Assembly (NCBI RefSeq): GCF_030209445.1
Contig: NZ_JARVSD010000008.1
Location: forward strand, 310,001 to 374,000
From: Promicromonospora sp. MEB111
GTDB taxonomy: Bacteria > Actinomycetota > Actinomycetes > Actinomycetales > Cellulomonadaceae
Length of the DNA stretch: 64,000 nucleotides
Direction of reading: 5' to 3'
Shown here: in pieces, positions 49,599 through 57,031 of the stretch
How the letters are laid out: every line of letters starts with the position of its first letter
Position numbering within the stretch: the first letter of the stretch is position 1
Made by a program: the position numbers and the translations under genes
The notes under the pieces: generated by a model
Database searches by the model: none
What the model saw: the letters and a program-made list of their open reading frames with translations, nothing else
Told to the model about the DNA's origin: nothing

Positions 49599-50927
49599 TC
49601 AGTGCTGCGGGCTGCGCACCGCGGCCAGGAACAGGGGGAGACGGGTCTCGGTGTGGGCGATCCGCAGGAGGTAGGGCCGGTCCACGGTCATCCGGACCGC
49701 GGGCTCGCCCGGCATGGCGCCGGTCGCCTCCATCCCGATCTCGGTGACGGCGGCCGCGACCGTCCCGTCCTCGTCCAGGTGCAGGTAGGCCTGCTGCACC
49801 ACCTGGCTCACCTGGAGCCGCTCGGTGGTGCTGATGCCTGAGAGGTCCGGGGCGTCGTACAGCCCGCCGAGACCGGCCTCGTCCAGCGCCGGGGCCAGGT
49901 CGAGCGTCGGCGGTTCGAGCTCCAGGGTGGGCATGGCGAGCTCGACGGGCCGGGGCGCCGCGCCGTCCAGGGCGGTGGTGAGGGCGGTCAGCGTCCCGGG
50001 CGCGACGTCCGCCGGGTCGGTGCCCTCCGGCGGCAGCAGCACGTCCGCGTGGAACGCCTCGCCGTAGGGGAGGCGGACGGCGACCCAGCCGTCGTGCTCG
50101 GCGTACCCCCAGGACTCCGTGCCGTGCAGCATCTCGACGGGTTCCGTGCCGCCGGGGCCGGTGAAGTCCTCGTCCCGGGTGGCGTGCTCCTGGAACGGCG
50201 TGTCCCAGCGGGCCGCGAGCAGGACCGCGTTCTGCAGCACCAGGCGCAGCATCGGGTCGGGCTCGATCGCCGACTTCTCGATCAGGCCGCCCGTGTGGTG
50301 GTTCACCCAGGCGTCCAGCACCTTCTTGCCCGCGCCGGTGCCCAGGTCGGTGCGCTGCACGCCGGCGTCGAACGCGGACGCGAGCGCGTCCAGGTAGCCC
50401 TGCTCCACGACGAGCTGGTCGTCGAGCACGGCCTGGTTCGCGAGGTGCAGCACCGGGCGGTCGGGGAGCTCGTCGTCCTGCGCGACGCCGGGGTCGCCGT
50501 CGTGCCTCGCGAGCTCGGCCGTCAGGGCGTTGTAGGCGGCGGTGCGGTCCTCGCCCGAGGCGCCGAGCGCGGCATCCAGGGCCGTCGCGGTCTCGCCGCG
50601 CGCACCCTCGGCGAGCAGCGCCAGCGCGAAGGTGAGTGACGCGGGGGAGACCAGGGCGTTGTCCTTCGGCTCGGCGGTCGCGCGCAGCGCGAGCAGGCCC
50701 AGGTCCTCCGTCGCGGCGACGGCGTCGGCGCTCGCGGGGGTGTCGGCGACGGTGACGACGACGCGTGCGGCGTCGGACCGCTCCAGGCCCTCGTCCGCCG
50801 CTGGGGCGCACGCGGTCAGCACGCCGCAGGCGGCAAGGGCGAGGATGCCGGCGGCCGCGGTGACCGCCGCGCCGTGGGGGCGGGCGGTGCGCGGGGCGGG
50901 TCGGGCGGTCCTGGCGCGACGGTGCAC
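49599..50927 (-). CDS. serpin (serine protease inhibitor) lipoprotein
   Basis: 442 residues. A signal peptide with lipobox LTAC (about residue 37-40) anchors it outside the cell. The serpin fold shows ALVSPASLTFALALLAEGARG, LANQAVL, and the hinge of the reactive-centre loop EDGTVAAAVTEIG (around 383-395), followed by MEATGAMPGEPAV and the C-terminal strand PYLLRI. The short-side-chain hinge is what inhibitory serpins have. The P1 residue cannot be fixed. GTG at 50927 follows a GGAGGA site. It is divergent from tex across a 46-bp palindrome. It may guard against own or foreign proteases. Confidence 0.92.
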   Translation of the reverse strand: MHRRARTARPAPRTARPHGAAVTAAAGILALAACGVLTACAPAADEGLERSDAARVVVTVADTPASADAVAATEDLGLLALRATAEPKDNALVSPASLTFALALLAEGARGETATALDAALGASGEDRTAAYNALTAELARHDGDPGVAQDDELPDRPVLHLANQAVLDDQLVVEQGYLDALASAFDAGVQRTDLGTGAGKKVLDAWVNHHTGGLIEKSAIEPDPMLRLVLQNAVLLAARWDTPFQEHATRDEDFTGPGGTEPVEMLHGTESWGYAEHDGWVAVRLPYGEAFHADVLLPPEGTDPADVAPGTLTALTTALDGAAPRPVELAMPTLELEPPTLDLAPALDEAGLGGLYDAPDLSGISTTERLQVSQVVQQAYLHLDEDGTVAAAVTEIGMEATGAMPGEPAVRMTVDRPYLLRIAHTETRLPLFLAAVRSPQH

Positions 50928-51012
50928 GGTGTCCTCCGGGTCTGGGGCCCGGGTGAGCGGGCGGGTCCTGCTCCGGATATGTCGTGACCCGCCCCGGCCT
51001 TGCACCTCGTCC

Positions 51013-51150: not shown

Positions 51151-53535
51151 TTGGCAAGCATCAACCAGCGCATCGCCGAGGAGCTGGGCGTTCGTGAAGG
51201 GCAGGTGACCGCAGCGGTCGACCTGCTCGACGGCGGCGCGACCGTGCCGTTCATCGCCCGCTACCGCAAGGAGGTGACGGGCACCCTCGACGACGCGCAG
51301 CTGCGCACCCTCGAGGAGCGGCTGCGGTACCTGCGCGAGCTCGAGGAGCGGCGCGCGGCGATCCTGGCGTCGGTGCAGGAGCAGGGCAAGCTCACGGACG
51401 AGCTGCGGGCCCAGATCCTGGCTGCGGAGACCAAGTCGCGTCTGGAGGACATCTACCTCCCGTACAAGCCCAAGCGGCGCACCAAGGCGCAGATCGCGCG
51501 CGAGGCCGGCCTGGAGCCGCTCGCCGAGGCGCTGCTGGGCGACCCCTCGCTCGACCCGACGGAGGCCGCCGGCCCGTACGTCGACGCCGACAAGGGCGTG
51601 GCCGACCCGGCCGCGGCGCTCGACGGCGCCCGGGCGATCCTCGTGGAGCGCATGGGCGAGGACGCCGACCTGATCGGCACCCTGCGCGAGCGGCTGTGGA
51701 AGCGCGGGCGCATGCTGTCCGCCGTCCGGGACGGGGCGCAGGACAAGGGCGCGAAGTTCTCGGACTACTTCGAGTTCGCCGAGGCCCTGTCCAGCCTGCC
51801 GTCGCACCGTGTGCTCGCCCTGTTCCGCGGCGAGAAGGAGGACGTGCTGGACCTGACGATCGAGCCGGAGGAGGGCATCGAGGCCGGCGTGCCGACGTCC
51901 TACGAGGCCACGATCGCCCACCAGTTCGGCATCGCCAACCAGGGTCGCCCGGCCGACCGCTGGCTGGGCGACACCGTCCGCTGGGCCTGGCGCACCAAGA
52001 TCCTGGTGCACCTCGGCATCGACGTGCGGCTGCGGCTGCGCTCCGAGGCGGAGGACGAGGCCGTGCGCGTGTTCGCCGCCAACCTGCGCGACCTCCTGCT
52101 CGCCGCGCCCGCCGGCACGCGGGCCACGATGGGCCTCGACCCGGGCCTGCGCACGGGCGTCAAGGTCGCCGTCGTGGACGCCACCGGCAAGGTCGTGGAG
52201 CACGCGACCATCTACCCGCACCAGCCGGCCAACCGCTGGGACGAGTCGCTCGCCGTGCTGGCCCGGCTGGCCCAGAAGCACGGCGTGGACCTGGTGGCGA
52301 TCGGCAACGGCACGGCGTCGCGCGAGACCGAGCGGCTCGCCGCAGACCTCATGAAGAAGGTGCCGGAGCTCGGCCTGACCAAGGCGGTCGTGTCCGAGGC
52401 CGGCGCGTCCGTGTACTCGGCGTCCGCCTACGCGAGCGCGGAGCTGCCCGACCTCGACGTGTCCATCCGTGGCGCCGTCTCGATCGCGCGCCGCCTGCAG
52501 GACCCGCTCGCCGAGCTCGTGAAGATCGACCCCAAGTCGATCGGTGTGGGCCAGTACCAGCACGACATCACCGAGACCAAGCTGTCGCGGTCGCTGGACG
52601 CCGTGGTGGAGGACTGCGTGAACGGCGTGGGCGTGGACCTGAACACCGCGTCGGTGCCGCTGCTGTCGCGCGTCTCGGGCATCACCTCGACGCTCGCCGA
52701 GAACATCGTGGCCCACCGGGACGCCAACGGCCCGTACGCGTCCCGGGCGGCGCTCAAGAACGTGCCGCGACTGGGCCCCAAGGCGTTCGAGCAGTGCGCG
52801 GGCTTCCTCAAGGTCTCGGGCGGCGACGAGCCGCTGGACGCGTCGTCGGTGCACCCCGAGGCGTACCCGCTGGCGCGGCGCATCGTGACGGCGTCGGGCG
52901 CGGACGTGCAGGCGCTGATCGGCAACGGCGGCGCCCTGCGCACACTGAAGCCCACCCAGTTCGTGGACGAGACCTTCGGCCTGCCCACGGTGACCGACAT
53001 CTTCGCCGAGCTGGAGAAGCCCGGCCGCGACCCGCGTCCGGCGTTCACCACGGCCTCCTTCGCCGACGGCGTCGAGACGCTGGGCGACCTGGTGCCCGGC
53101 ATGGTGCTGGAGGGCCAGGTCACCAACGTCGCGGCGTTCGGCGCGTTCGTGGACATCGGCGTGCACCAGGACGGGCTCGTGCACGTCTCGGCCATGTCCA
53201 AGAACTTCGTCAGTGACCCCCGCGAGGTCGTGAAGTCGGGCGACATCGTCAAGGTGAAGGTCATGGACGTCGACCTGCAGCGCAAGCGGGTCTCCCTGAC
53301 GCTGCGCCTGGACGACGAGGTCGGTGCGGCCCCCGGCGGCCGTACCTCGGGCGGCGCCCGCTCCGGCGGGGCCGGCGGTCAGGGCGACGGCCAGCGCGGC
53401 GGCCGCCCGGGCGGCGGCGAGGGCCGGGGCCGGGGCGGTCAGGTCCGCGGTCAGGGCGGACAGGGCGGCCGCGGTCGCCCCGCCCCCGCGGACACCGCGA
53501 TGGCGGACGCCCTCCGCCGCGCGGGCCTGGCCTAA
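51151..53535 (+). CDS. tex: Tex family RNA-binding transcription accessory protein
   Basis: 794 residues. Tex/YhgF proteins bind nucleic acids and aid transcription and toxin expression. The layout is standard: N-terminal helix bundle, YqgF-like RNase H fold ([16 protein letters not shown], about 327-342), helix-hairpin-helix repeats, and an S1 RNA-binding domain (about 650-720: [21 protein letters not shown]). A tail of Gly/Arg-rich repeats (about 728-775) resembles RGG boxes and is not in all homologues. TTG start at 51151, with GAAGTGAGG upstream. Confidence 0.95.
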
Positions 53536-53560
53536 CACCCCGAGCGGGGCCTGAGGAGAC

Positions 53561-53620
53561 GTCGAACGTAGGGTTGGTCGCAGCAAGAAGCGTGATGGGG
53601 CGACCAACCCTACGTTCGAC
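53561..53620. terminator. long hairpin after tex (or operator of the double TetR)
   Basis: A perfect 20-bp inverted repeat (53561-53580 with 53601-53620), 20 bases apart; one more pair is possible inside. It starts 25 bases after the tex stop. The next gene points the same way, so it could end tex or be an operator for the fused TetR that starts 82 bases later. No T-run. Confidence 0.65.
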
Positions 53621-53702
53621 TACCAGGTGATGCCTCGTGAGACCTGGGCGTGGGAGACTGGGTGCCACATCGTCGGCCCCCTTCGGAGACCAAGTACGCC
53701 CC

Positions 53703-55367
53703 GTGAGCAGCAGCGCAGAGAGCACGCCCCGGCGGCGTCGACGGCAGGAGCTGCTGAACCGCTCGATCGCCGTGGCGCGCCGCCTGCTCACCGACGGCGG
53801 GCTCGAGAGCGTGACGATGCTGGCCGTCAGCCGGGAGATCGGGATCGCCGGGCCCGGCCTCTACCGGTACTTCCCGAGTCGCGCCGGCCTGCTGCGAGCG
53901 ACGTGCCGGCACGTGCTCGACGAGCTGGTCGCGCACGTCCGCACCGCGGTCGCCCGGCAGCCGGCCGGTGACCGCGCCGCCGAGGTGCAGGCGCTGACGA
54001 ACGCGATGTTCGCGTGGTGCGTGGCGCACCCCCACGAGTTCGACCTGCTGCTCGGCGCCGGCCTGCGTCTGGTCGAGGAGGGCGCACCGGTCGGCGGGGA
54101 GTCCGGCGGCACGTTCTACGAGGTGGCCGCTCTCGCGTTCCCGCCGGTCGTCGCCCAGTGGGCCGACGGCGCCGTCCGGTTCGACGAGCCCGTTCCCCCG
54201 CAGCTCGCGGCGGACCTCGGCGCCCGCCGCGACGCGCTGCTCGCGGTGTTCCCGGACGCGCCCCGCGACGTGCCGCTGGGGCTGGTCGCCGCCGTCCGTG
54301 TCGCCTGGCAGCGCACCTTCGGCCTGCTGTGCATGACGGCGTACGGGCACGTCACCGAGCCCGACGGGCCGGTCCGGCGCGACTACGTCACCGCCCTGCT
54401 CGACGACCTGAACGCCAGGAACCTCGCACTCTTCGGCCTGGGGGTCAGCCCCGCCGCCGTCCTGGAGCCGGTCTTCGAGCCCGCTTCCGAGAGCGGTGCG
54501 CCCGAGCCCACCGCGCCCGCCACATCCGGGTCCCGCCCGGCCGACGAGGCCGGCACGGCCACCCCGGGCGCCACGGGTCGTCGGGCACGGCTGCGCCGGG
54601 AGCTGGTGGCGGAGGCGTTGCGCTCGGCACGCCGCCTGCTGGACGAGCACGGCCCGGACGGCGTCACGATGCAGGCCGTCGCGAAGGACGTCGGGATCGC
54701 GGCGCCCGGGCTGTACCGGTACTTCGACGGCCGCCCGGGCCTGCTGCACGCCACGCACCAGGACGTCGTCGACGAGCTCCTGGCGTACGTGGAGACGGCC
54801 CGGGCGCGGCAGCCCGGGGACGACCCGAGCGCGCAGTGCCACGCCGTCGTCGACGCACTGTTCCGCTGGTGCATCGCCCACCGCAACGAGTACGACCTGC
54901 TGATGTCGGGACGCCTGCGCATCTCCCTCCCGGGCGAGGACACACCCGGGGAACCCCGCCACGCGCCGCTGATGGCCCTGGACCGGGTGGGCGCCGTGTT
55001 CGCGCCGATCGCCCTGGCGTGGTGGCGGGCGGGCTGCCGCGTGATCCCCGACGACGAGATCCTGCCCGCGCTCGGGCCCCACCTGCGGGCCGCGCGCGAG
55101 GCGATGCGCGGGATCCCGGGCTTCCCGCCGGACGTGCCGCTCGGGCTGCTGCACGCGATGAACCTGTGCTCGGCGCGGCTCTGGGGCCTGCTCACGCTGA
55201 CCGTCTACGGCCACATGGGCGACATCGACGCACCGGCGGCCGCCGCGCACCTGGACGCGCTGGTGCTGGACCTCGTGGTCGACGCCCTCGACGTCTTCGG
55301 CCAGAAGCTCTCCGCGGACGTCGTGCTGGTGCGCGACACGCCGGGATCGTCCGACCCCGTCCGATAG
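53703..55367 (+). CDS. fused double TetR family regulator
   Basis: 554 residues made of two complete TetR repressors in one chain. Module 1: HTH (about 18-65, SVTMLAVSREIGIAGPGLYRYF) and a WHG-type ligand domain to about 255. A Pro/Ala/Glu/Ser/Thr linker (about 258-290) follows. Module 2: HTH (about 292-345, GVTMQAVAKDVGIAAPGLYRYF) and a second WHG-type domain to 540. TetR proteins bind DNA as dimers, so this may be a covalent pseudodimer. GTG at 53703 is chosen by similarity; no ribosome-binding site is clear. It precedes the flavin reductase gene by 32 bases. Confidence 0.92.
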   Translation: MSSSAESTPRRRRRQELLNRSIAVARRLLTDGGLESVTMLAVSREIGIAGPGLYRYFPSRAGLLRATCRHVLDELVAHVRTAVARQPAGDRAAEVQALTNAMFAWCVAHPHEFDLLLGAGLRLVEEGAPVGGESGGTFYEVAALAFPPVVAQWADGAVRFDEPVPPQLAADLGARRDALLAVFPDAPRDVPLGLVAAVRVAWQRTFGLLCMTAYGHVTEPDGPVRRDYVTALLDDLNARNLALFGLGVSPAAVLEPVFEPASESGAPEPTAPATSGSRPADEAGTATPGATGRRARLRRELVAEALRSARRLLDEHGPDGVTMQAVAKDVGIAAPGLYRYFDGRPGLLHATHQDVVDELLAYVETARARQPGDDPSAQCHAVVDALFRWCIAHRNEYDLLMSGRLRISLPGEDTPGEPRHAPLMALDRVGAVFAPIALAWWRAGCRVIPDDEILPALGPHLRAAREAMRGIPGFPPDVPLGLLHAMNLCSARLWGLLTLTVYGHMGDIDAPAAAAHLDALVLDLVVDALDVFGQKLSADVVLVRDTPGSSDPVR

Positions 55368-55399
55368 ACCGGTGGTGCGGGTTCGGTCAGGATGACGAC

Positions 55400-57031
55400 A
55401 TGAACAACGCACCTGAGACACCTGGCGAGCAAGCGGACGAGACCTACGACGTCATCGTGATCGGTGGCGGTCCCGTGGGCGAGAACGCGGCGGACCGCGC
55501 CTCCCGCACCGGCCTGTCCGTCGCCCTGGTCGAGTCCGAGCTCGTGGGCGGTGAGTGCTCGTACTGGGCCTGCATGCCCTCCAAGGTGCTGCTGCGCGCG
55601 GGCACCGTGCGCGCCCTGGCGCGCGACACGCCCGGCCTGGCCGACCCGGGGGCGCCCGACGTCGCCGCCGTGCTGGCCCGGCGCAACGAGATCACCTACG
55701 ACTGGGACGACTCCGGGCAGGTCTCGTGGGTCGAGGGTGCCGGTCTGACGCTCGTGCGCGGGCACGGCCGCCTGGCCGGCGAGCGGCTGGTGGAGGTCAC
55801 TGTGCCGGCGGCGCCGTCCGGCGCCGGGTCCGGCGACGCGACGGGCGGCGGCTCCGAGGACGACGACGCCGACGTCGGCGGCGGCCTCGCGGAGGCCGAG
55901 ACGGGTGACGCCCCGGTGACGAGGCTCCTGCGGGCCCGGCACGCGGTGATCGCGGCCACCGGCAGCGTGCCCGTGCTGCCCGACACCCCGGGGCTGGCGG
56001 CCGCCTCACCGTGGTCGAGCCGGGAGGCGACGGGCGCCGAGGCGATCCCCGAGTCCCTGGTCGTGATCGGCGGCGGGGTGGTGGGCGTCGAGATGGCGAA
56101 CGCGTACGCCGACCTCGGCGCGCAGGTGACGCTCCTGGCCCGGGGCGGCCTGCTGTCGAACGCCGAGCCGTTCGCGGGCGAGATGGTCGGCGAGTCTCTG
56201 CGTGCGATCGGCGTCGACGTCCGGACCGGCGTGGGGGTCGCCTCGGTCGAGCGGCCGGGCACCGGCAGCGACAACGAGCCCGCGGGCCCGGTGACCGTCA
56301 CCCTGTCCGACGGCGGGACGATCACCGCCGCGGAGATCCTGGTCGCGACGGGGCGCGTGCCGCGTACGACCGACCTCAACGTGGAGAGCGTGGGCCTGGA
56401 CACGTCGAGCCTGGGCCGCGGCGGGGCGCTGGTGGTGAACGAGTCGCTCGAGGTGGTCGGCGTGCCCGGCGGCTGGCTGTACGCGTGCGGCGACGTGACG
56501 GGGCGGGCGCCGACCACGCACCAGGGCAAGTACCAGGGCCGCGTCGTCGGCGACGTGGTCGCGGCGCGGTACGGCTCGGAGGCCGGCGACCGGTCACCGA
56601 CCAGCGGCGATCCCGAGCCCGCCGTCGGGCAGGAGGGCAAGCCGTGGTCGCGGTACGCCGCGACCGCCGACCACAGCGCGCGCGTCCAGGTGGTGTTCAC
56701 CCGGCCGCAGGTGAGCTGGGTGGGGCCGACGGAGCGCGAGGCGCGGGCCGCCGGGATCCCGGTCGAGGCCGTGTCGTACGACCTGTCGTGGGTGTCCGGT
56801 GCGAGCGTGGACGGCCCGAACTACACGGGCCGGGCCCAGGTGCTCGTCGACACCAAGCGCCGGGTCCTGGTGGGCGCCACGTTCGTGGGGCCCGACGCCG
56901 GCGAGATGCTGCACGCCGCGACGATCGCCGTCGTCGGGGAGGTGCCGCTGGACCGGCTGTGGCACGCGGTGCCCGCGTACCCGACGGTCAGCGAGGTGTG
57001 GCTCCGCTTCCTGGAGTCCTACGGCCTCTGA
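55400..57031 (+). CDS. pyridine nucleotide-disulfide oxidoreductase (Lpd/MerA-like)
   Basis: 543-residue flavoprotein. N-terminal FAD loop VIGGGPVGENAA, redox disulfide in GGECSYWACMPSK (Cys-x4-Cys), NAD(P) loop VIGGGVVGVEMA and second FAD motif YACGDVT are intact. In place of the classical HPTxSE catalytic dyad the C-terminus has YPTVSE. An acidic Gly-rich insertion of about 35 residues (around 135-170, GGGSEDDDADVGGG) interrupts the first FAD domain. The disulfide substrate is unknown. It is likely co-transcribed with the double TetR gene. Its end meets a long hairpin. Confidence 0.9.
   Translation: MNNAPETPGEQADETYDVIVIGGGPVGENAADRASRTGLSVALVESELVGGECSYWACMPSKVLLRAGTVRALARDTPGLADPGAPDVAAVLARRNEITYDWDDSGQVSWVEGAGLTLVRGHGRLAGERLVEVTVPAAPSGAGSGDATGGGSEDDDADVGGGLAEAETGDAPVTRLLRARHAVIAATGSVPVLPDTPGLAAASPWSSREATGAEAIPESLVVIGGGVVGVEMANAYADLGAQVTLLARGGLLSNAEPFAGEMVGESLRAIGVDVRTGVGVASVERPGTGSDNEPAGPVTVTLSDGGTITAAEILVATGRVPRTTDLNVESVGLDTSSLGRGGALVVNESLEVVGVPGGWLYACGDVTGRAPTTHQGKYQGRVVGDVVAARYGSEAGDRSPTSGDPEPAVGQEGKPWSRYAATADHSARVQVVFTRPQVSWVGPTEREARAAGIPVEAVSYDLSWVSGASVDGPNYTGRAQVLVDTKRRVLVGATFVGPDAGEMLHAATIAVVGEVPLDRLWHAVPAYPTVSEVWLRFLESYGL

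Follow-up and report, generated by a model that had tools for sequence, protein, structure and literature searches.

A double TetR protein of Promicromonospora with split and fused orthologues among close relatives

The fused gene studied here lies in a 64,000-nucleotide stretch of Promicromonospora sp. MEB111 (the window) and encodes two TetR units in one chain, which are separate, overlapping genes in close relatives. We propose that its product is probably an intramolecular TetR pseudodimer, i.e. a fused heterodimer, which would read a near-symmetric operator and carry two different ligand pockets. Double TetR proteins are already known, and the window protein adds to a known architecture; the occurrence of split and fused states among close relatives, together with nearly equal recognition helices, seems to be new. 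The origin of double TetR proteins is poorly known, and split versus fused orthologues address this question. They also permit a direct comparison: whether the split proteins pair, and what fusion alters.

The gene (53703..55367, forward strand, as are all its parts) is a single open reading frame of 554 residues with a GTG start, running to the stop at 55367. All five orthologues have a GTG aligned with this one, 13 bases 3' of a conserved GGAGA, the putative ribosome-binding site (53685..53689), found in the upstream regions of all five; a start at 53637, which would give a longer frame, is less likely. Pfam finds two stretches of TetR_N (PF00440; E 5.9e-25, 87.2 bits in total against a cut-off of 24), each above the cut-off by itself (47.1 and 48.3 bits), and two of TetR_C_33 (PF13305; E 1.1e-08, 36 bits in total against a cut-off of 26.8). 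When the separate proteins of genome G002 are scored singly for TetR_C_33, the N protein reaches 24.0 (below 26.8) and the C protein 27.5 (above). The N-terminal TetR, residues 1-258 (53703..54476), holds the first helix-turn-helix (HTH) domain (53766..53900) with the recognition helix GIAGPGLYRYF. The C-terminal TetR, residues 292-554 (54576..55364), holds the second (54618..54752), with GIAAPGLYRYF, and the better-scoring TetR_C_33 ligand domain (54840..55265). They are joined by a 33-residue linker (54477..54575) free of stops and composed mainly of Ala, Pro, Thr, Glu, Gly and Ser. The window protein thus has the double TetR architecture, two complete units in one chain, and the first-pass annotation had correctly read the two units, the GLYRYF ending of both HTHs and the Pro/Ala/Glu type of the linker. 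The name WHG that it gave to the ligand domains is presumably a synonym of TetR_C_33; the Pfam result itself does not carry it. The two halves are 41-42% identical.

Orthologues were sought in 59 genomes (own, genus, family and order), 13 of them from the genus. Close matches to both halves are present in 5 of these 13 (G000, the window genome; G002; G006; G009, whose assembly is 83% complete; G010) and in none of the 46 genomes outside it. G002, G010 and G009 are apparently Promicromonospora umidemergens, P. sukumoe and P. kroppenstedtii, respectively. In these three of the five orthologous pairs the halves are two separate genes, the first aligning with the N-terminal and the second with the C-terminal TetR, with a 4-bp overlap of stop and start: ATGA in G009 and G010, GTGA in G002, where an ATG immediately 3' of the first stop is an alternative start of the second gene. 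The other two pairs are fused into one open reading frame, of 554 residues in G000 and 591 in G006, and their linkers, of 33 and 73 residues, lie at the same place, that of the stop/start overlap in the split genes.

Recognition helices and proposed pairing of the halves

The two recognition helices of the window protein are equal at 10 of 11 residues, and both are kept in all five genomes with a single Gly-to-Ala change, in the N half of G006. Half-versus-half identities were computed within the same genome, over the five genomes, with helix limits taken from the first AlphaFold2 model and a helix numbering of our own. They amount to 83% for recognition helix residues 50-56, 54% for the whole HTH region (20-65), 40% and 42% for helices 1 and 2, and 37% for the ligand domain; helices 7, 8 and 9 give 20%, 47% and 28%, respectively. 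The simplest prediction from near-equal recognition helices is that both halves read nearly one half-site. The asymmetric operator initially envisaged is therefore not favoured, although the HTH region as a whole is only 54% identical, and recognition of the Mce3R type, with two unlike HTHs on a nonpalindromic operator, appears unlikely from the sequences. The companion idea of two ligands may hold, given that the ligand domains share only 37%. The likeness of the two recognition helices is, as far as the related sequences indicate, partly inherited, since a paralogue found elsewhere in the genus shares the motif with Met for Leu (GIAGPGMYRYF), whereas the helix reads GVTPPALYRHF in eight related rows of single TetR proteins from the genus.

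The following history would account for the protein. Tandem duplication of a TetR gene with a TetR_C_33 domain would have produced neighbouring genes, the stop of one overlapping the start of the next, and their products would have formed a heterodimer. Later, in the common ancestor of G000 and G006, an in-frame linker would have replaced the stop/start junction and made one chain, which most likely folds on itself as a pseudodimer. Its two HTHs, with their near-identical recognition helices, would each occupy one half of a single near-palindromic operator, and the two diverged ligand domains would form unlike pockets; the chain could be released from DNA through either. A tentative extension, to which we give less credence than to the pseudodimer itself, is a fusion caught in evolution: the paralogous TetR proteins would be an obligate heterodimer in some species and, in sister species, a pseudodimer of one chain. 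If true, symmetric DNA reading would have been kept while each half had its own ligand pocket, yielding a two-input repressor, and a second pair in the genus, one partner of which has lost the usual form of this helix, would mark heteromeric TetR pairing as habitual in the subfamily. Such orthologues could also serve to test whether a symmetric DNA reader with two different pockets acts as a logic gate.

Intramolecular pairing is plausible because Mce3R (PMC11667970) and engineered single-chain Tet regulators (PMC1797012) are described as pairing in this way. The covalent pseudodimer of the first-pass annotation stands as the best reading, with the reservation that the packing of the halves is not predicted with confidence. 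A first AlphaFold2 run on the whole chain gave a mean pLDDT of 61.9 and a pTM of 0.41; a second, with mycobacterial double TetR rows added, was worse (54.0 and 0.36). In the first model the N half has the TetR fold (residues 14-246 against Rv1816, 5d1r: Z 20.5, rmsd 3.0, 219 aligned; the structural matches, 5d1r included, cover the N half only), and the C half is predicted to have the same helix order. Foldseek alignment of this low-confidence model with the whole chain of Mce3R (9b7y) gave TM 0.22/0.30 and rmsd 28.5, which counts neither way; Mce3R is absent from the best 50 structural matches listed for the N half. Against the pseudodimer stand the lengths of the linkers, 33 and 73 residues, which would equally let separate chains pair, and the HTH region, where the halves show no special likeness beyond helix 3; helix 8 is also more conserved between the halves than helix 9.

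The strongest competing explanation is that two chains pair N half to N half and C half to C half, forming a double-headed repressor of two separate symmetric dimers. Each dimer would have an operator and a ligand of its own, and the repressor could loop DNA. In favour of this, the linkers are of sufficient length, typical TetR proteins are homodimeric, the ligand domains have diverged, and such pairing was among the two models weighed for Mce3R. We nevertheless hold it to be rather unlikely, as near-identical recognition helices speak against two distinct operators and Mce3R turned out to pair within its chain. Overlapping genes that later fuse are moreover commonly those of partners within one complex.

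A related adjacent TetR pair also occurs in the genus. Its second member (L031:4457-5227, L032:4785-5408, L035:5635-6387) has a degenerate recognition helix, ALPEADVARAV or AVPESELRDVV instead of GIAGPGMYRYF, and that of L035 gives no Pfam match at 0.001; judging from this helix, it may be a non-DNA-binding partner. The first member is present in G000 and G006 (L033:4007-4816, L034:4259-5083), where no second TetR was found beside it at E 1e-6 within the 9-kb stretch covered; in L033 it adjoins a DUF1775 gene.

Duplication, fusion and genomic neighbourhood

A tree of 40 TetR rows separates the N halves of the five genomes from their C halves; each set is a clade, the two are sisters (joint clade 100/98), and next to them stands the paralogue found elsewhere in the genus. 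This topology points to an old tandem duplication as the source of the pair, which would thus predate the sampled genomes. The first-pass annotation had deduced from the divergence of the halves that the fusion is not recent; the duplication is indeed old, but the fusion itself is found only in G000 and G006.

A DNA tree of tex alone, the gene in front of the pair in G000, did not resolve the order of G000, G006 and the group of G009 and G010. When tex and the neighbouring reductase gene are combined, G000 is united with G006 (98/98), the split G009/G010 come next and the split G002 lies farther out. From this topology, with the fused pair united and the split genomes outside, the split state is likely ancestral, and the simplest account is a single fusion, which probably occurred once on the common branch of G000 and G006. 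The TetR genes themselves place the fused pair inconsistently, with weak or conflicting support: G000 and G006 are grouped by the C-half DNA (88/92) and by the concatenated TetR genes (73/77), the N-half DNA groups G006 with G009/G010 (62/47), and the C-half protein groups G000 with the split G002 (96/79). Two fusions, or one fusion and a later split, are possible alternatives.

Both halves are conserved. The dN/dS ratio between G000 and G006 is 0.49 for the N half and 0.36 for the C half, and all 20 pairwise values for the two halves lie between 0.19 and 0.53. These values bear on a near-neutral fusion, in which one half would regulate and the other would be a passenger. Such a history would agree with the presence of the fusion in just two of the five pairs, with the somewhat raised dN/dS of the G006 N half (0.49-0.53 in three of four comparisons) and with the degenerate recognition helix in the second member of the related pair. 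The confinement of every dN/dS value to the range above, and the maintenance of both recognition helices in all five genomes apart from the one substitution in G006, make it improbable.

The pair sits behind tex in G000, G006, G009 and G010. The nine other genomes of the genus are without it at that place: the reductase gene directly follows tex in five of them (G002, G003, G005, G008, G012), and something else does in G001, G004, G007 and G011. The simplest account is that the pair was inserted between tex and reductase in the lineage of G000, G006, G009 and G010. The G002 pair is found at a different locus, beside an MFS transporter, so its history may involve transfer. Neither neighbour can be used as a target: the reductase adjoins tex in five of the nine genomes without the pair there, and the other 12 genomes of the genus hold nothing above 40% for the MFS transporter of G002. 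A serpin family protein gene (window 49602-51005, reverse strand, E 7.4e-63) is divergent from tex, and a viral contig scan found nothing.

The upstream region and its palindromic repeat

Alignment of the orthologues revealed a candidate upstream box (53649..53662, forward strand), possibly a promoter or operator element, which reads GTGxGAGACTxG in four of the five and ATGGGAGACTGG in G002. Its long form occurs only at the fused-gene locus, in G000 and G006 (2 of 13 genomes). No short imperfect palindrome was common to the best-scoring ones upstream of the five orthologues, and a promoter and terminator scan of 53400-55500 gave nothing.

Farther upstream, at 53564..53617, lies a copy of a genus-specific 54-bp palindromic repeat. 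The repeat core, GAACGTAGG-N30..44-CCTACGTTC, has 12 copies in the window genome and 2-48 in ten other genomes of the genus, the highest number being that of G010 (P. sukumoe). It is therefore present in 11 of the 13 genus genomes (all except G001 and G007) and in none of the 46 outside; the reversed control pattern gave no copy in any of the 59. Pairing between the arms was counted over 34 distinct copies, a set retrieved in part through a motif derived from the window copy itself. It holds in 85% of cells at the variable arm positions 10-18, where shuffling gives a mean of 76% and a maximum of 80%, and in 62% of cells at positions 19-27 (shuffled 51% and 58%). By a rough gene call, 5 of the 34 are inside genes. 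Other copies are found in L045-L097, with a further half copy at three loci (L049, L050, L053). Rfam holds no family matching the repeat at gathering score; a mir-6301 match over the palindrome (E 0.033, 23.7 bits against a gathering score of 70) was taken as chance.

The first-pass annotation had proposed binding assays with the inverted repeat at 53561-53620, as though the window protein bound it as its own operator. A copy does lie upstream of the pair in all four genomes where the pair follows tex: the core is exact in G000, G006 and G010, and one arm is changed in G009. Set against this, the repeat is scattered across the genus, the TetR pair is missing from six genomes that have copies, no exact-core copy was found near the G002 pair, either in the surrounding 12 kb (L042) or in the aligned upstream region, and the arms co-vary as in a hairpin, unlike a fixed protein site. 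An operator role is thus very improbable, and on present sequence data the palindrome is most readily taken as a hairpin repeat specific to the genus.

Comparison with other double TetR proteins

A sequencing or assembly frame error joining two genes, which the first-pass annotation had named as fatal to its reading and which the two-gene state of three relatives at the corresponding place might suggest, is rejected as very unlikely: independently of the window assembly, G006 carries an in-frame fusion with a different and longer linker (73 versus 33 residues), which an error in one assembly cannot explain, both linkers substitute for the split junction and neither can be produced from it by a small indel, and the only homopolymer of at least 5 bases in 54440-54619, GGGGG at 54440, is in a conserved segment outside the linker. 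Within the 6.2-Mb window genome, 150 of 295 TetR_N candidates were scored, and among the 105 matches listed only the two of the window protein share one open frame. Across 396 genomes of the order (E 1e-15, three candidates scored per genome, the window genome being the sole representative of its genus in the match list), 20 genomes had any match, and no fused homologue from outside the genus was among the matches listed.

As cited in PMC11667970, 204 double TetR proteins are predicted in Actinomycetes. The one described there is Mce3R of Mycobacterium tuberculosis (PDB 9b7y), of 406 residues (M1 1-205, M2 206-406), which forms an intramolecular asymmetric four-helix bundle and binds a nonpalindromic site; in the accessible part of PMC4482099, the subject of double TetR proteins is limited to a mention of Mce3R. 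Like Mce3R, the window protein is natural and has two TetR units per chain, and the intramolecular pairing shown for the former is proposed for the latter. They differ in length, 554 residues with a 33-residue linker against 406, and in DNA reading, the HTHs of Mce3R being unlike each other. The best phmmer stretch between the window protein and 9b7y covers the region of one HTH only, so that the similarity along both units and ligand domains expected of an Mce3R orthologue is lacking. In two double TetR proteins from mycobacteria the ligand domains belong, by their matches, to TetR_C_24 (L121 above and L102 just below the cut-off), not to TetR_C_33. These two comparisons suggest that the fusion in Promicromonospora is most likely independent of that of Mce3R.

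The best PDB phmmer matches of the fused protein and of each separate G002 protein are Rv1816 (5d1r), also first among the structural matches of the N half, and SCO4313 (2oi8), which are single TetR units, unlike the double window protein. A second natural parallel is the two-HTH, TetR-type protein ACTI_69510 from Actinoplanes sp. OR16, which binds the promoters of rubber-oxygenase genes and for which its authors suppose an internal duplication (PMC7413915). Its halves are 25.0% identical, compared with 41-42% in the window protein, and the available portion of that article mentions no split orthologues of the kind that the window protein has. The engineered single-chain Tet regulators consist of head-to-tail units joined by a peptide linker and fold intramolecularly (PMC1797012). 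The window protein resembles them in its two TetR units and peptide linker; they are man-made from Tet repressor units whereas it is natural, and a chain of this kind would lend itself to the development of single-chain biosensors.
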